Shown here: piece after piece, positions 43,023-50,936 of the stretch
Layout: the number at the start of each line of letters is the position of its first letter
How positions within the stretch are numbered: the first letter of the stretch is position 1
Assembly: GCA_029262115.1 (NCBI GenBank)
Contig: JAJCZZ010000101.1
Location: 62,001-126,000, forward strand
Length of the DNA stretch: 64,000 nucleotides
Source: Gemmatimonadota bacterium
Lineage (GTDB): Bacteria; Gemmatimonadota; Gemmatimonadetes; Longimicrobiales; Gaopeijiaceae
Direction of reading: 5' to 3'
Position numbers and translations under genes: made by a program
Notes under the pieces: generated by a model
What the model was told of the DNA's origin: nothing
Seen by the model: only the letters and a program-made list of their open reading frames with translations
Databases searched by the model: none

Positions 43023-43343
43023 CTACAGGGTGATGTCCCCGCCCGGATCCCGCTTCTTGAGCCGTTCGAGCTGCGCCGCCGCATCTCCACGGCGTCGTGC
43101 CGTCTCCTCGACGTCGATGACGGCCCGAGACCAGTCGAGGCGCGTCACCTCCGGGGTCGTCCCGTCGGCCAGGGGTGCGGTGCCCGTGGCCGCCCCCTCC
43201 TCCACCCGCAGCACACACCCTTCCTCCACCCCCTCCCGCAAATCCTCCCGGGCCACCTCCACGGCCGACTCCGGCTCCCCGTCCGGCACCAGCACCACGC
43301 GATCGCCTTCGATGCGGTCCACCACCCACACGCGCCCGCTCAA
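43023..43343 (-). CDS. DUF3006 domain-containing protein
   Basis: A 106-residue small protein: the first 60 residues are the beta-barrel-like DUF3006 (VWVVDRIEGDRVVLVPDGEP, EVAREDLREGVEEGCVLRV). DUF3006 proteins are regularly encoded beside ComEC-like secreted metallo-beta-lactamases, as here: the TTG start overlaps the stop of the upstream gene by 4 bp. Role unknown; perhaps a partner or protein-binding cap for that enzyme. Confidence 0.75.
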   Translation of the reverse strand: MSGRVWVVDRIEGDRVVLVPDGEPESAVEVAREDLREGVEEGCVLRVEEGAATGTAPLADGTTPEVTRLDWSRAVIDVEETARRRGDAAAQLERLKKRDPGGDITL

Positions 43344-44599
43344 TACACGTGGCGGGCCCGCACCCGCCCCTCAGCGTCGGTGAGGACGGCGGTGTCGCCG
43401 CTGTTGTTCCATACGGCCTGACGCCGCCCCCAGTAGAGCCGTCCTTCATCGTCTCGTCCCGACCCGGTGTGGAGCGACAATGACGCGCCGGCGTCGAGAC
43501 GGGCGCCGCGCTGGAAGCGGTAGCAGTGGCGCGCCAGGTCACACAGGACCCAGCCCGACAGGTCCAGGGCCGCCGAGCCGTCGTTCCGGAGCACCGCGTA
43601 CTCGCCGTTGAGGTTGTGGTGATCGTTGCCCGGGGCGTCGGCCACCACGTGCAGGTCGACCGAGGCCGGATTCGAGGCGATGGCATCGGTGCCGGCCCCC
43701 GCCGTTCGCTGATTCTCGCCCGCGTCGCCGGCGGTCGCGGGCCGCCCCGTCGCGATCGTGGCGCCCATCTCCACGGCCCACGACCCGTCGGCCCGCCCCA
43801 CCACAGTGACCGACCCCGCCCGGTCGGTGCGCTCGACCCGGGCGCCCGCCGCCGCGTACGCCGCGAGAGCTCCGGTCCCCGGATGCCCGTAGCTGTTGGG
43901 CCCTACGGACATCACCACCACCTCGGGTCGCGCCGCGCCGAGGAACGCGTCGGTCACCCCGTTGTCGCCGCCGTGATGGGGCGCCTTGAGCAGCTCCACG
44001 TCGGGTATCGCCCCCCGGTCCGTCCACCACGTCAGCTCGCCCTTCTCCGAATCGCCGCTCAGGAAGGCCTCGAAGTCGCCGAAGCGCACGACCAGACCGA
44101 TGGACCGGTCGTTGTGCTCGCCGGGTCCGGGCGGGAGGGGCAGCACCTCGATCTCCGCCTCGCCCAGGGCGATGCGCCGGGGCGTCGCCTCGAGATACGT
44201 GACGTCGGGCGACGCTTCGAGGCGGTTCACGAGCCGCAGGTACGTGGCGGTCGTGTGGGTTCGCCCGTTGTCCATGTAGAACCGGACTGGGAGGGCGGCC
44301 AGCACGTCGTCCATGCCGCCGATGTGGTCCTGGTGGGGGTGGGTGGCGACGAGCAGGTCGACGCTTGTGATGCCCCTGCGCCGAAGCTCGTCCAGCGGTG
44401 CGGAAGGGCCGGCGTCCACCAGGGCGGTCCGTCCGCCCGCCTGGATCAGGACGGCATCGCCTTGACCCACGTCGAGGAAGGTGAGGACGAGGCCCGAAGG
44501 TTCGTCCGGTCGGCTGTCAGCGCTCGGAGGCGGGGGAGATTGGGCCAGCGCGGGACCAGCTTCGACCTGAAGCGCGGCGAGAAAGAGGAGTCGGAGCAT
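43340..44599 (-). CDS. Secreted ComEC/Rec2-like metallo-beta-lactamase with a C-terminal lamin-tail domain
   Basis: A 419-residue exported protein (signal MLRLLFLAALQVEAGPALAQ). The metallo-beta-lactamase domain has FLDVGQGDAVLI, the metal motif THPHQDHIGG (HxHxDH), FLSGDSEKGE (Asp) and LKAPHHGGDNG (His), as in ComEC-type nuclease domains. Residues about 310-419 form a lamin-tail-domain-like beta-sandwich (GEYAVLRNDGSAALDLSGWV), a fold frequently attached to extracellular nucleases. It probably degrades nucleic acid or a phosphodiester outside the cell. It is coupled to the DUF3006 gene. Confidence 0.85.
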   Translation of the reverse strand: MLRLLFLAALQVEAGPALAQSPPPPSADSRPDEPSGLVLTFLDVGQGDAVLIQAGGRTALVDAGPSAPLDELRRRGITSVDLLVATHPHQDHIGGMDDVLAALPVRFYMDNGRTHTTATYLRLVNRLEASPDVTYLEATPRRIALGEAEIEVLPLPPGPGEHNDRSIGLVVRFGDFEAFLSGDSEKGELTWWTDRGAIPDVELLKAPHHGGDNGVTDAFLGAARPEVVVMSVGPNSYGHPGTGALAAYAAAGARVERTDRAGSVTVVGRADGSWAVEMGATIATGRPATAGDAGENQRTAGAGTDAIASNPASVDLHVVADAPGNDHHNLNGEYAVLRNDGSAALDLSGWVLCDLARHCYRFQRGARLDAGASLSLHTGSGRDDEGRLYWGRRQAVWNNSGDTAVLTDAEGRVRARHVY

Positions 44600-44606
44600 G
44601 GGGAGT

Positions 44607-46664
44607 CTACCGCAGCCTCTTCGATCGGATCCAGCCGTGCTGCACCGCGTGACTCACCAACTCGGTGTGGTGGTCCACGGCAATGACCACGGATCTCCCC
44701 CAGCCCAAGTCGACGCGGGCGACGTGGTGCGCCGCGTCCCGTCCGACCTTCCACGCTCCGGCGTTCAGCTCGAGATCGGGGAACAGGGTGCGCAGCCCTT
44801 CGAGGAGCGCGTCGTCAGGGTCTGGACGCGGGCGGAGCGTGGCGCATGTCCGGCACGTGGCCGGAGAGCCGTCGATGTCCTTTGAGCAGATCGTTCGTCG
44901 GCAGCTTTCGCATTCCCGCCTGTGGACCGCGCACGCCCGGCTGCCGCAGACGGGGCACCCCTCGAGGTCGGACAGGCGAGTGGCATGACCCTCCACGGCA
45001 CACGGTGCCGCGTGTGCCGGACAAGAGTACTCTCCGCCTGCCAGCGCGACGGAATGGGTCTCGCAATGTGGGGCGTCATCGTGGTAGCACCGATAGAGGT
45101 GGGACGCGCAGGCAGAAGCGCCGCACGTCGCGCACTCATCCACCTCGTCGACCGCCAACATGAGGTGGGGTTCGAAGGAACAGTGGGCCCGGTGTTCCGG
45201 GCACACGACCCGGCGCGTTCGGTCCGTCCGTGCCACGTGACTATGGCAATGGACGGCCTCGTCGACGTCACAGCGGGCGGAGTGATCGCCGCACACATCG
45301 ACGCCGCACGTCTGGCACACCTCGACCTCGGTTGGTGCGTGGATCTCTCCCTTCTGGCTGCGGCAGTATCGGGCACAGGCTGTACACAGGTGCAGTGCGT
45401 CCGCCCGGTCCGGCCGCCACGAGGTGGGAGCTGTATCGAGTGCGTGCGTCGGGCATATCGATGTTCCACATGCATCACACGTGGTCAGGCACTTCGCGCA
45501 CGCGTGGTGATCGTGGGTCGCGCAGTCCCCACCGTGCGTTGCGCAGTGGATGTCGCCGCAGGACCGGCACGTCCGGGCGTGCTCCGAGCAGACCCCGTGG
45601 CCGCCGTCACCGAGGCACGTGCCCCCACCATGATGATGGCACTCGGTCCGCCCGCACTCGGCGCATCCCGCCGTGCACCCGCCGCAGGTGACATGACCTC
45701 CCGCGCACACCGCCCATTCCGTCGGTGAACTGCGATGGCAGGTGGGGCACCCGATCGACCACTCCGTCGGTCCCATCGACAGCCTCCGGCCCACAACCCG
45801 TCCGTTGGCGGCACCATCGGTCATCGTCGCCTCGACGTACTCGGCCAGGATATGCAGAACCTCCAATTGGACAGGGCGGAGTTGGGCCGAGACCTGGTGA
45901 CGGGACAGCTCCTCCGCACGTCGCCGCTCGTGGTCCCTCTGGAAGGCCTCCACCGCCCGGTCCGCGTCAGCGCCGAGCCGCGCGCGCTCCTCCTCGATCA
46001 TCCCCCCGAAGTACCGGTCCAGTCGAGCGAGCTCGTGGTCCAGGCGCGTCGCGGCGTCCGTTGACGCGGCGGACACCTGGTCGGACAGCCGCGCCTCGAT
46101 GTCCTTCAGCATCGCCGGGAGCAATCGCTCCAATCCCATCATCTCCGATACTGGATGCTGTCCCGGCGACGGACGCTCGTCTCCCGCCTCCAGCGTGACC
46201 GTCACGGGTTGCCCCGTCATCAGGTCGAAGAATCCGGTCGAAACGACGTGATCCGAAACGTCGTGGCCGGCTCGCACCGACGCTGCCACGTGCAGACGAC
46301 CGACGGGTAGCCACGCCCTCCTGCGATCCGAAAGCTCGACGGTCCCTCTCCGAAGCCGCAGGGTGGGTGCCCCCGAGCCACTGGCTGCGTCCGGACCCTC
46401 GACGAACCCGCGATCCAGCCGGGCCCCGCGTTGGCGGATGGCCCCGATGAGCTGTTCGGCGAACCGGCTTCCGAGGACCGCCAACTCCGCCTCCGGATAC
46501 AGATCGATATCGTCGGGCGTAGCGGCCAGGTGGATGGATGACCGCCCGAACCACCTTCGATGCTCCGGGCCCGGATCGAACCGGAACAGGCCTTCCTGCA
46601 CCTGCTCGAGGGTCCCACCGCCCAGGTCGACGTACGACTCGAGGAGTCGGATCACCTCACTCAC
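44607..46664 (-). CDS. Cys/His-rich zinc-finger-repeat protein overlapping a SNF2 helicase gene
   Basis: About 685 residues, no family recognised. The first 170 residues are a mixed domain, 180-285 a long charged helix or coiled coil (DHELARLDRYFGGMIEEERA), and 306-607 an array of metal-binding repeats. Six copies of CxxCGxxxCxxH start near residues 334, 366, 396, 450, 511 and 570, for example CAECGRTECHHH, CRSCGDIHCATH, CQTCGVDVCGDH, CPVCGSRACAVH. A final 60-residue domain follows. The GTG at 46664 overlaps the helicase stop (GTGAGTGA), so translation is coupled; a longer frame begins at ATG 46721. Probably a nucleic-acid or protein-binding partner of the helicase. Confidence 0.75.
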   Translation of the reverse strand: MSEVIRLLESYVDLGGGTLEQVQEGLFRFDPGPEHRRWFGRSSIHLAATPDDIDLYPEAELAVLGSRFAEQLIGAIRQRGARLDRGFVEGPDAASGSGAPTLRLRRGTVELSDRRRAWLPVGRLHVAASVRAGHDVSDHVVSTGFFDLMTGQPVTVTLEAGDERPSPGQHPVSEMMGLERLLPAMLKDIEARLSDQVSAASTDAATRLDHELARLDRYFGGMIEEERARLGADADRAVEAFQRDHERRRAEELSRHQVSAQLRPVQLEVLHILAEYVEATMTDGAANGRVVGRRLSMGPTEWSIGCPTCHRSSPTEWAVCAGGHVTCGGCTAGCAECGRTECHHHGGGTCLGDGGHGVCSEHARTCRSCGDIHCATHGGDCATHDHHACAKCLTTCDACGTSICPTHALDTAPTSWRPDRADALHLCTACARYCRSQKGEIHAPTEVEVCQTCGVDVCGDHSARCDVDEAVHCHSHVARTDRTRRVVCPEHRAHCSFEPHLMLAVDEVDECATCGASACASHLYRCYHDDAPHCETHSVALAGGEYSCPAHAAPCAVEGHATRLSDLEGCPVCGSRACAVHRRECESCRRTICSKDIDGSPATCRTCATLRPRPDPDDALLEGLRTLFPDLELNAGAWKVGRDAAHHVARVDLGWGRSVVIAVDHHTELVSHAVQHGWIRSKRLR

Positions 46665-49131
46665 CAGGATCCACCCCGGCTCGAAGACCCACCTGCGGCG
46701 GAGCCAGGGGTGCCTCTTCATCAGCGTCGAGATCGATGATCGTCACCGGGAGCCGATCCGCTGACACCAATAGGGAGACGCCGCGTCCCCGGCCTGTAGC
46801 CGAATGAATACGAACCTGGGGGCCGTACTCTCCCACTCCGGCCGACTCGACGGACGAATCCGCGAGCCGGAGTGCATTCTGGATCTCGGGAACGGTCAGC
46901 CCGAGGCTGATGCGCTTCGCCTCCACCCCCTGAGGCAGGTTCATCAGTCGGGTCCCATAGGCCATTCGTACTCGGGTCGGGATGCTCAGAGCTGTGAACT
47001 CCCGTTCCAGACGGTCTGCCGTGTCCTCGGGCGCGATGAAGCTGGAGAGTTCCTCGGAGCGCCGGCCTTCCGCGAAGCTCTGGTCGACCTCTCGCTCCAG
47101 TCGTTCGATTTCGCGCTCGAACACTTCCTCGCTCGAGGCGGCGAGCCACGCCTGCGTGAACCGCTTCTCCAGTTCCGAGGCGTCCTCGAAACGACCAAGG
47201 ATCACGTCGAGTTCTCCGACCACCAGCTCGAAGACTTTGATCTTCTCGGCTAGGACCTCGAGGATGCGATCCTCGACTGTGCCCGACGCGGCCAGATTGT
47301 AGATGTGGACTTCGGAGGTCTGGCCGATGCGGTGCACGCGCCCGATCCTCTGCTCCACGAGCAGCGGATTCCAGGGAAGTTCGTAGTTCACCAGCACATG
47401 GGCGCACTGCAGGTTCAGGCCCTCGGTCCCCGAGCGGGAACTGAGGAACACCGCGTTGGGTGTGGCCTGGAACTCACGCTTGACCCGAGCCTTCCGCGCG
47501 CGATCGATGCCACCATGGTACGGAAGGACCCGGCGTCCACGGGCCTCCAGGTGCCGCTGGATGAGGTCGATGGTGGGCCGGTGCTCGCTGAACACGACCA
47601 CCCGCTCTCCTTCGTGCATGGCCATGACGGTGTCGAGAGCCCGCAGCTTGGCATGGGAACGGATCGCGTTGGCTCTGCGCCCCAGGGCTCGTGCCTCGGC
47701 GCGGAACTCCGGCCGTACATCGAAGTTCTCGGACAGTCTGAGGAAGGAGGAGGCGATGGCTTGGCTGGAGGAGCAGGCCCGTTGAGCCATGTTCGTCAGC
47801 AGGAAGTGAGCGTTCCGGATCGCGGCGTCGGGATACATCCCCTCCCGGTAGAGCGTTCGGAGGAACGACCGGATATCTCCGTAAAGCGCTTGTTCCTCTG
47901 CCTCGAGGGCGAACTGGGGACGGTGAGGAATCCGACGGGGGAGATGGAGATCCACGTTGGCGCGCCTGTTCCGGATCATCACCTGTGACGCGATGCTCCG
48001 AATTGCGGTCGGGTCTCGTGGCATCCGAGTGCCTCGGGCGATGTGCCGTGCCGAGAACTCGCGCCAGGTGCCGAACTGCCCGGGGCGGAGCAGGGTGACC
48101 AGATTGTAGAACTCGCGGAGATCGTTCTGGAGGGGCGTGGCCGTCAGAAGCAACATGAAGTCGCGCCGCATCTCCTGGAGCGTCTGATACAGAGCGGTTT
48201 GGTGGTTCTTCGCCTTGTGGGCCTCGTCGACGATCACGAGGTCCCAAGGTCGGGCGGTGGCACGGGAACGGTTGGCGGTGTGCCGCACTCGCGCGTGGCT
48301 CGCGATTGTCAGGTCGGTGCTCGACCAGTCTCGGGGTGACTCCACGTCGTTGAACTGGAGGTGGAACTTGTCGTCCATCTCCGCTTGCCACTGATCGACC
48401 AGGCTGGCCGGGCAAAGAATCAGCACGCGGCGAACGAGCCGACGGACCAGAAGCTCCTTCAGAATCAGTCCCGCTTCGATGGTTTTCCCGAGTCCGACTT
48501 CATCCGCAAGGAGAGCCCGACCACCCATCTGTCGGAGCACGCGGATGGCCGTCTCCGTCTGATGGGGCAACTCCTCGATCGTGTTGGCGTCGATGGCGAT
48601 GAGTTCGTCGAAGCCGGGATTCAGGGCCAGACGCTCGGCTCGTTGTCGCAATCGGTACCACGAGGGGTGGTCGGGCTCACGGATCTGCCCGAGGAAGGAG
48701 TCGAACTCGTCGTCCGACAATCGGAACTGGACCGTTCCTTCGTGGGCGAGGATGTCCGCCACCGCGTGCTGGCTTCCCGGCGAAGGCCCACGGCTCCGGA
48801 ACGCGGGCTTCGGTTCAGCGTCCGCCGGCATGGACTGCGGAGACGCAAGCATCTGCTCCACCCGGCTGTGAAGTCTGGCGGCCGATGCCGTGCGGCGGCT
48901 GGACAGGACGTCCAGGATCTCCCGGAGCGTGCGCGCATCTCCACTGGCGGTGGCCTGGGTGGCGAGCACCTCCAGTTGGGCGACTCTGAGGGAATGCAGA
49001 ATCAACTCCGTAGCGGGAGAGGGCCGATCGGCTGGCGCGAACGCTGCGCTAACGACAGCCTGCGACCATTCACGGTCGGTGGCAAGAGGAGTGGGGGGGC
49101 TGAGGGTGGCGTGGCCAGTGGGTCGGGACAT
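46657..49131 (-). CDS. SNF2-family DEAD/DEAH helicase-like ATPase
   Basis: An 824-residue superfamily 2 ATPase of the SNF2/RapA type. Motif I is LLADEVGLGKTIEAGLIL (about residues 208-225), motif II VIVDEAHKAKN, motif III LLTATPLQN, motif V SSRSGTEGLNLQ and motif VI QRIGRVHRIGQT. About 130 residues precede the first conserved region and a coiled-coil-rich tail follows the core (RFTQAWLAASSEEVFEREIE). Such proteins move along double-stranded nucleic acid or strip proteins from it: RapA recycles RNA polymerase, others serve in defence systems. Here it is tied by an 8-bp overlap to the zinc-finger-repeat gene; no methylase or nuclease is adjacent. Confidence 0.9.
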   Translation of the reverse strand: MSRPTGHATLSPPTPLATDREWSQAVVSAAFAPADRPSPATELILHSLRVAQLEVLATQATASGDARTLREILDVLSSRRTASAARLHSRVEQMLASPQSMPADAEPKPAFRSRGPSPGSQHAVADILAHEGTVQFRLSDDEFDSFLGQIREPDHPSWYRLRQRAERLALNPGFDELIAIDANTIEELPHQTETAIRVLRQMGGRALLADEVGLGKTIEAGLILKELLVRRLVRRVLILCPASLVDQWQAEMDDKFHLQFNDVESPRDWSSTDLTIASHARVRHTANRSRATARPWDLVIVDEAHKAKNHQTALYQTLQEMRRDFMLLLTATPLQNDLREFYNLVTLLRPGQFGTWREFSARHIARGTRMPRDPTAIRSIASQVMIRNRRANVDLHLPRRIPHRPQFALEAEEQALYGDIRSFLRTLYREGMYPDAAIRNAHFLLTNMAQRACSSSQAIASSFLRLSENFDVRPEFRAEARALGRRANAIRSHAKLRALDTVMAMHEGERVVVFSEHRPTIDLIQRHLEARGRRVLPYHGGIDRARKARVKREFQATPNAVFLSSRSGTEGLNLQCAHVLVNYELPWNPLLVEQRIGRVHRIGQTSEVHIYNLAASGTVEDRILEVLAEKIKVFELVVGELDVILGRFEDASELEKRFTQAWLAASSEEVFEREIERLEREVDQSFAEGRRSEELSSFIAPEDTADRLEREFTALSIPTRVRMAYGTRLMNLPQGVEAKRISLGLTVPEIQNALRLADSSVESAGVGEYGPQVRIHSATGRGRGVSLLVSADRLPVTIIDLDADEEAPLAPPQVGLRAGVDPGE

Positions 49132-49492: not shown

Positions 49493-49935
49493 AGCGGTAC
49501 GTCCTCGATACGAACCTATACGTGCGGGCCAGTCGGGACGCGGAGTTCGCCGAGGGCCTTGATCGTTTCGTGCGGGCCACGTTGCCCCACATCCACCTCC
49601 ACGCCGTGGTGGCCCAGGAACTCCTGGCCGGCGCCGTGAGCCCCGACGGGGAGCGGAGGATTCGGGGGCGCTTGATCGAGCCGTTCGAACGGCGGGGGCG
49701 GGTTGTGACGCCAACGTTTGCGGGATGGACTCGGGCGGGAGAGATCATGGCCCGGCTGATCCACCGGAAGCGGATGAGTCCGGGCGGATTCGCCCGCTCC
49801 TTCGTCAACGACTGCCTTCTGGCCGCGTCGTGCCGGGCGGAGGGCATCGCGCTGGTCACGGGGAACACACGTGATTTCGAGCCGATCCGCCTGGTCGAGC
49901 GCCTGGAGGTCGTGGAGGCCTGGCCGTCCGCTTGA
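49489..49935 (+). CDS. vapC: PIN-domain ribonuclease toxin (VapC)
   Basis: A 148-residue PIN-domain protein: YVLDTNLYVRA gives the first catalytic Asp, VAQELLAGA the Glu, RSFVNDCLLAASC the third acidic residue and VTGNTRDFEPI the fourth. It is a Mg-dependent RNase paired with the upstream antitoxin (start and stop overlap, GTGA). The module sits directly downstream of the divergent SNF2 helicase gene. Confidence 0.88.
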   Translation: MKRYVLDTNLYVRASRDAEFAEGLDRFVRATLPHIHLHAVVAQELLAGAVSPDGERRIRGRLIEPFERRGRVVTPTFAGWTRAGEIMARLIHRKRMSPGGFARSFVNDCLLAASCRAEGIALVTGNTRDFEPIRLVERLEVVEAWPSA

Positions 49936-50031: not shown

Positions 50032-50370
50032 ATGTTCCGATCCGACGACATCCATCCGGTCACCGATTTCGTCCGCAATCACAAGCGTCATCAGGAACAT
50101 CTCCGCGAGACCGGTCGCCCTGCGTTGCTCACGATCAACGGCTCTCCTGAAATCGTCGTTCAGGATGTCCGCGCGTTCGAACGCGCGGCGAGTGAGGCCA
50201 CGAGGCTCCGGGACGAGAACCGAGAGCTTCACGAGCGCCTCGAAGAACTGGAGACTTTGATTGCGCTCGACGAGGCGTACTCCGAGTTCGAGCGCGGCGA
50301 GGGCCGGCCCCTCGAGGAAGCCCTCCCCGCCCTGCGTGAGCGCCTCGGCATGGTCAGAGTCGCCGGTTGA
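50032..50370 (+). CDS. Phd/YefM-like antitoxin
   Basis: A 112-residue protein. The N-terminal half follows the Phd/YefM pattern (HPVTDFVRNHKRHQEHLRET, RPALLTINGSPEIVVQDVRA), the C-terminal half is helical with a coiled-coil-like segment (RDENRELHERLEELETLIAL). It is paired with the ParE-like protein whose TTG start overlaps this stop (TTGA). The DNA-binding region fits an antitoxin that represses its own operon. Confidence 0.8.
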   Translation: MFRSDDIHPVTDFVRNHKRHQEHLRETGRPALLTINGSPEIVVQDVRAFERAASEATRLRDENRELHERLEELETLIALDEAYSEFERGEGRPLEEALPALRERLGMVRVAG

Positions 50371-50936
50371 GGCGCTATGAAGTGCGCATTGCCCCTCGGC
50401 TGGCCGATGACGTCGAACGACACGTGGCGCGTCTGCGACGACTGGAATCCGAAGGCGAGATCAACTCCGGGTACTCCGACTCCTGGTACGCGACCTTCGA
50501 GGACACCCTGATGGGCCTCGAAGTCGCCGCAGAGCGGCACCCGTACGCACCCGAGCGGGAGGTGTGGGGTCGCGATGTCCGCAACGCTCTCTTCGCGGAC
50601 TACCGCATCCTGTACCTGGTGGTGGACCAGCAGGTCAGCGACCGAGGTGAGGTCATGACCAATACGAAGGGCGGCGTCGGATCGAGCTTCGACGATTTCC
50701 TCAGAGACGAGGGGATCCTCGAAGAGACGCGTGTTACGGCCGTCAAGCGCGTCCTGGCTCAGGCCATGGAGGAGAAGAAGCTCAGCAAGTCGGCGATGGC
50801 CCGTGAGTTGGGAACCAGTCGGAGCCAGTTGGACCGAATCTTGGATCCGGAGTACGACCAGGTCCGCCTCGACACGCTCACGGCCGCCGCCCGTGCGGTG
50901 GGTCGAGAGCTACGGGTCGAACTCGTCCAGCGCTAG
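50367..50936 (+). CDS. In-frame fusion of a ParE/RelE-type toxin with an XRE antitoxin
   Basis: A 189-residue protein. Residues 1-93 are a ParE/RelE-fold toxin (YEVRIAPRLADDVERHVARL, YADYRILYLV-like ending FADYRILYLVVD). Without a stop codon the frame continues into a complete XRE antitoxin of the HigA type: MTNTKGGVGSSFDDFLRDEG, then SKSAMARELGTSRSQLDRIL. The antitoxin ATG at 50655 has its own GAGGTGAGG site, so it can also be translated alone. In usual loci the two are separate genes. The toxin lacks its last strand, so it may be inactive or self-inhibited. The upstream Phd gene gives a second antitoxin. Confidence 0.75.
   Translation: MRRYEVRIAPRLADDVERHVARLRRLESEGEINSGYSDSWYATFEDTLMGLEVAAERHPYAPEREVWGRDVRNALFADYRILYLVVDQQVSDRGEVMTNTKGGVGSSFDDFLRDEGILEETRVTAVKRVLAQAMEEKKLSKSAMARELGTSRSQLDRILDPEYDQVRLDTLTAAARAVGRELRVELVQR

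Follow-up and report, generated by a model that had tools for sequence, protein, structure and literature searches.

An SNF2-family ATPase and a coiled-coil partner protein form a two-gene module found in bacteria and archaea

We find that an SNF2-family ATPase gene of a Gemmatimonadota bacterium and the gene that directly follows it, which encodes a protein of no known family, constitute an obligate two-gene module, and that this module belongs to the accessory genome, where it is patchily distributed. SNF2 motors are recurrent in prokaryotic immunity, as in DISARM, Dpd, BREX-3, Hma and Zorya, usually within larger gene sets, and the pair described here is an unnamed variant of this SNF2-plus-partner theme. 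Full-text literature searches of incomplete coverage returned no description of the pair, for which a name may already exist, and no named defence or repair system with this pairing, as an earlier reading of the DNA from its letters (the sequence-only reading) had supposed. Our survey covered the genomes of one phylum together with plasmids and phages, and it started from a window, by which we mean the whole stretch of 64,000 nucleotides that was analysed. The features of the window that bear on the pair are as follows.

46657..49131, minus strand: SNF2-family ATPase gene, 824 aa; open reading frame with Pfam SNF2-rel_dom and Helicase_C, member of a pair-specific clade
47866..48516, minus strand: SNF2 N-terminal ATPase lobe, residues 206-422; Pfam PF00176, with GLGKT, DEAH and TATP motifs
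47323..47649, minus strand: helicase C-terminal lobe, residues 495-603; Pfam PF00271, with EQRIGR motif VI
46657..46664, minus strand: helicase stop and GTG start of the partner overlapping by 8 bp, read from the sequence
44607..46664, minus strand: partner gene, 685 aa, no known family; open reading frame with GTG start, conserved in 21 loci
46137..46664, minus strand: partner N-terminal domain, residues about 1-176; from zinc-free profile-profile comparison
45804..46136, minus strand: long coiled-coil helix, residues about 177-287; from an AlphaFold2 single-sequence model
44844..45749, minus strand: zinc-ligand array, residues 306-607; from motif scan and shuffles, six C-x2-C-x4-C-x2-H units and about 12 CxxC pairs
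44607..44834, minus strand: partner C-terminal domain, residues about 611-685; from conserved residues in the partner alignment
43340..44599, minus strand: metallo-beta-lactamase and lamin-tail-domain gene; from Pfam, starting 7 bp past the partner stop
49498..49935, plus strand: PIN (VapC-like) toxin gene; Pfam PIN 2.7e-11, divergent and upstream of the pair

The window helicase possesses both lobes and the catalytic motifs that define the SNF2 ATPase superfamily, with Pfam matches to SNF2-rel_dom at 2.6e-34 and to Helicase_C at 3.7e-20 and with GLGKT, DEAH, ATP and EQRIGR..R motif residues that are intact and invariant across an alignment of 19 homologues. The sequence-only reading had described a complete SNF2 ATPase whose gene overlaps that of its partner by 8 bp, and both statements hold, since the partner GTG at 46664 overlaps the helicase stop by exactly that length. 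This overlap, which measures 4-11 bp in most relatives, suggests translational coupling of the two genes. An N-terminal extension of ~140 residues is found only in the window helicase and its closest relatives, the C-terminal region (about residues 690-824) is missing from archaeal and cyanobacterial members, and the plasmid homologues, at about 520-600 aa, stop soon past the SNF2 core. The next-best SNF2 gene of the window's genome, on contig C82, is 32% identical to the window helicase, and a search of the 4.4-kb stretch around it gave no match to the partner. A single partner match elsewhere in the contigs of this genome was rejected as a chance match of DDIDLYPE in an unrelated protein.

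Searches of Pfam, NCBIfam, PADLOC and PDB sequences returned no match to the partner, which accordingly has no known family, in agreement with the sequence-only reading of the pair as an uncharacterised system. In single-sequence AlphaFold2 predictions the long helix has a pLDDT of mostly 69-96 and nearly all of the remaining sequence lies under 50, and outside this helix neither the model of the whole protein nor that of residues 1-303 was good enough for a fold search. The C-terminal domain is marked by five conserved residues (W638, R642, D643, L653 and G654) and, in its window-type form, shares no detectable homology with the C-terminal ends of those haloarchaeal partners that carry an array. 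Between the helix and this domain lies the array, with C-x2-C-x4-C-x2-H units at residues 334, 366, 396, 450, 511 and 570, that is, six exact units against 0.07 expected from shuffles of the same composition. With the glycine included, the six read C-x2-C-G-x3-C-x2-H. At least six such repeats had been noticed earlier and this number stands, but their description as near-identical does not: mean pairwise identity is 24%, or 12% outside Cys/His, so that the units have their metal ligands in common and little else, and no tandem repeat was found in the DNA. Across 21 homologues, 57 of the 73 Cys/His columns of the array are at least 90% conserved, compared with 33 of 240 other columns, and the array is evidently functional. 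By eye, the conserved columns give about eight potential ligands per full unit (C-x2-C-x4-C-x2-H-x3-C-x4-6-H-x0-2-C-x2-C/H), a spacing that appears to resemble the binuclear cross-brace zinc modules of the B-box/RING kind; unlike those modules, the partner matches none of the Pfam zinc-finger models and its fold is without a confident model. Zinc binding by the array is thus putative, as judged from the ligand pattern and its conservation.

The two genes occur together with great regularity in the phylum. Among ~395 Gemmatimonadota genomes, a helicase search identified 27 carriers and a search with the partner profile 28, and when only loci uncut by a contig end were considered, the partner was present in 25/25 helicase genomes and the helicase in 25/26 partner genomes. 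The partner lay directly downstream of the helicase in all 20 loci that were inspected first, mostly with an overlap of 4 bp. The one exception, genome G145, has on a long contig a partner without about its first 35-40 residues and no helicase. The orphan, 5'-truncated partner that adjoins a MacB-like permease gene and has no helicase (L183:5403-7424) is a probable remnant of a lost pair.

The pairing extends well beyond this phylum. A tblastn search of plasmids with the window partner matched three, all haloarchaeal and each with the match just past an SNF2 gene, and on haloarchaeal, cyanobacterial and Rhodovastum plasmids the gene that follows other SNF2 homologues encodes a 'hypothetical protein' of 280-400 residues that has few or no cysteines and, in most cases, a coiled-coil-like stretch. 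Of 16 haloarchaeal records in the reciprocal search, at least 15 had the partner next to the SNF2 gene, as had 6/6 cyanobacterial or alphaproteobacterial plasmid records. We compared partner profiles over the zinc-free N-terminal and coiled-coil region only, and found that window-type partners match haloarchaeal ones with prob 97 (E 2e-11) and cyanobacterial ones with prob 79 (E 1.5e-5), that the direct match between haloarchaeal and cyanobacterial profiles is weak (prob 24.6, E 8e-4), and that reversed and unrelated control profiles reach prob 2.3 or less. Judged by these profiles, the partner cores are homologous across bacteria and archaea. In a tree of the core domains, the helicases of 17 pairs fall into a single clade (support 100/99.6) against four outgroups (a BREX-3 helicase, a DrmD and two other SNF2 proteins), which points to a single origin of the pair helicases; an earlier tree, in which nine outgroups lay at greater distance, gave no resolution owing to long branches. 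The window pair, a helicase of this clade followed by a partner that shares the common core, is thus a member of the wider SNF2 and coiled-coil-partner module, and the recurrence across genomes that the sequence-only reading had proposed as a check is borne out in Gemmatimonadota and on distant plasmids alike.

The array itself varies widely within this module. Cyanobacterial partners have none, the partners of Rhodovastum and of the haloarchaeal Natronorubrum type carry about one terminal finger, one finger being the rule in most haloarchaea, and the number of CxxC pairs rises from about 12 in the window type to 37 in Halorhabdus and 47 in Haloferax lucentense; even within Gemmatimonadota-type partners the unit number differs by one. 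A constraint that places all array-bearing members in one helicase clade was rejected (p-AU 5e-53), and the array has therefore been gained or lost at least twice, for which our preferred reading is independent expansion of an ancestral finger. We therefore rejected the array as the feature that defines the system, the role in which it had first been cast, and regard it as an optional elaboration of the partner.

Several observations place the pair in the variable part of the genome. Carriers make up about 7% of the genomes of the phylum, and 23 of them are among the 102 genomes of one family; the flanking genes of one pair are absent from nearly complete congeners that do not have the pair. 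In genome G203, two copies stand 24 kb apart on contig C11 (L043 and L044), with helicases that are about 80% identical and partners that are 58-68% identical, one partner being a zinc unit shorter. Both genes are under purifying selection, with dN/dS of 0.11-0.26 in the less saturated comparisons. Partner protein identity falls somewhat faster than that of the helicase, the array evolves no faster than the rest of the partner, and, with no sign of positive selection, we rejected the notion of the partner as a hypervariable sensor.

Purifying selection on both genes would also be expected of a pair that recycles transcription complexes or remodels RNA polymerase, in which a RapA-like motor would have had its RapA-specific domains replaced by the zinc and coiled-coil partner. 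RapA, the RNA-polymerase recycling ATPase, shares the SNF2 core and appears among both the matching models and the solved structures, and zinc fingers and coiled coils would suit an adaptor that binds polymerase. However, the match to the RapA equivalog model reaches 195.4 bits against a cut-off of 576 and is confined to the helicase core, its best stretch covering window helicase residues 153-361 from model position 120, so that the N-terminal region of RapA lies outside it. The helicase is accordingly no ordinary RapA orthologue of the partnerless kind against which the sequence-only reading had warned: its partner is always adjacent, and RapA is not known to us to require such a partner. 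Since more than 90% of the phylum's genomes are without the pair, and since it is plasmid-borne in distant lineages and sits in a variable region where this could be tested, we think a transcriptional role rather unlikely; for polymerase recycling, one of the suggestions of the sequence-only reading, we found nothing that specifically speaks. The other characterised SNF2 models nearest to the window helicase (DrmD, DpdE, BrxH and HmaA) likewise match mainly its core, and DrmD, DpdE and RapA scores are all far under the cut-offs where the models have them.

We next consider the genes around the pair. Downstream of the window partner, the metallo-beta-lactamase and lamin-tail-domain gene, which is accompanied by a DUF3006 gene (43023-44599, minus strand), is possibly co-transcribed with the pair. 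Its only homologue beside other pairs is at L039:18754-19053, near the pair of Halocatena, where a lamin-tail domain is 52% identical to that of the window gene. On the other side, the VapBC-like neighbour noticed in the sequence-only reading is supported by its PIN domain (2.7e-11) and a weak VapB, and the second toxin-antitoxin locus is less certain, comprising a Phd/YefM match below cut-off and an HTH protein; in detail, a Phd/YefM-like gene is followed there by an open reading frame whose first half is, by eye, RelE-like and whose second half is HTH (50032-50936, plus strand).

Similar genes recur at other loci. RelE/ParE genes with their antidote, or PIN genes, lie near the pair on two Nostoc plasmids, the RelE/ParE and antidote genes standing downstream of it, and ParA/ParB, relaxase, replication or toxin-antitoxin genes adjoin the pair on cyanobacterial and haloarchaeal plasmids. 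Such company would fit a helper in plasmid or mobile-element maintenance or in DNA repair, which would aid its carrier element by clearing protein roadblocks or processing replication or recombination intermediates. Against this, several Gemmatimonadota-type pairs are probably chromosomal, since the contigs that carry them measure hundreds of kb to 3 Mb, and the partner gave no match in collections of phages and viruses at the search sensitivity applied; we hold this explanation to be unlikely.

Restriction and nuclease genes form a further set of neighbours. A type III Mod-RhuM-Res set lies directly upstream on the same strand in two genomes (L052:2-5276 and L055:124-4929), ending 7-8 bp ahead of the helicase start, and in two others an HsdR-N protein or an SF1 helicase/RNase H protein is encoded downstream. 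In three haloarchaea an Mrr_cat gene overlaps the partner stop (L037:17381-18334, L038:16937-17959 and L039:15792-16448), and DUF1156/DUF499 (Hma-like) genes stand alongside the pair in several haloarchaea. The placement behind type III genes and the company of DUF1156/DUF499 genes would also be in line with a pair that is no system in its own right and serves as an add-on to existing defence systems such as Hma/DUF499, DISARM-like or type III R-M. Neighbours differ from locus to locus, however, and most pairs have no type III R-M or Hma-like genes beside them, which makes such dependence the least probable of the readings that we consider.

Comparison with known systems likewise sets the pair apart. 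The closest published account is that of BREX-3 and the DUF499-centred BREX-related (Hma) systems, whose SNF2 helicases, BrxHII and HmaA, are described as having a TUDOR domain, an inactive REase domain and an alpha+beta domain at the C-terminus, many BREX-related ones with a nuclease as well, and as being encoded together with an MTase, an AAA ATPase and often PglZ (PMC12839542). The pair resembles them in having a RapA-type SNF2 core in a putative defence context, and such systems lie beside some haloarchaeal pairs. It differs in that its SNF2 proteins are compact, have a partner of their own and form a clade outside which a BREX-3 helicase branches, and neither MTase, DUF499/BrxC ATPase nor PglZ genes were seen beside the window pair. 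DrmD of DISARM is the closest NCBIfam SNF2 model by score, yet at 249 bits against a cut-off of 610; it sits on a separate branch, the pair includes no DISARM genes, and neither DrmA/B/C nor MTase genes were seen beside the window pair. For DpdE of Dpd the score is 225 bits against a cut-off of 500. Zorya type I ZorD joins an SNF2 motor to an Mrr-type nuclease, reminiscent of the three-gene arrangement in haloarchaea, but does so in one polypeptide that acts with ZorA/B/C, whereas the genes are separate here and no ZorA/B/C was seen.

Because the pair is patchily distributed, occurs on plasmids and has R-M, toxin-antitoxin and nuclease genes as neighbours, we favour a role on DNA directed against invaders, and infer for it a physical complex, DNA translocation, zinc binding and a nucleic-acid target. 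Encoded in the accessory genome, the pair would make up a machine of two subunits driven by ATP, in which the SNF2 subunit acts as a double-stranded-DNA translocase and the partner as a dedicated targeting subunit of this motor. Through its N-terminal domain and coiled coil the partner may dimerise and attach to the motor, and through its zinc modules it may bind nucleic acid or nucleic-acid-bound protein. The target could be foreign DNA that invades or replicates, or the DNA of a competing plasmid, on which the motor might strip or remodel bound complexes, or from which it might deliver DNA to a nuclease encoded by neighbouring genes. We give close to an even chance to the proposal that the partner directs the SNF2 motor at foreign DNA and that neighbouring genes contribute the nucleases. 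More tentatively, and with some doubt, we suggest that the pair is an undescribed two-gene immune system of bacteria and archaea, in which a compact SNF2 motor has one dedicated coiled-coil partner; the terminal finger of this partner would have grown, separately in two or more lineages, into arrays with as many as 47 CxxC pairs, which would tune the number of contacts to nucleic acid or protein.

Several results count against an anti-invader role. Apart from a subtilase gene beside seven loci, Gemmatimonadota-type pairs have no conserved third gene, and the pair itself encodes no nuclease; two of the three haloarchaeal Mrr proteins appear to be without the QxK motif, which is apparent only in L039. 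The low dN/dS and an array that is no faster than its surroundings are unlike a typical fast-evolving invader sensor, and a PADLOC comparison of pair regions with 20 control regions, made on aggregate counts, fell short of establishing an enrichment near defence genes because kinase-like models were matched by control genes too. Among the SNF2 motors of prokaryotic immunity the pair would be a minimal case, two genes for a motor and an obligate partner with from none to 47 CxxC pairs, so that targeting could be separated from the motor by experiment. It also supplies a family ready for naming to genes now annotated as 'SNF2-related' and 'hypothetical' on haloarchaeal and cyanobacterial plasmids.

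Two further neighbours deserve mention. The subtilase, of about 440 aa, is accompanied by an 82-aa gene, and its seven loci (L046, L049, L050, L051, L054, L057 and L060) all belong to one family, the genes lying upstream of the pair in some and downstream in others. One gene downstream of the most divergent bacterial pair lies an RHS-repeat gene (L058:10604-14788).
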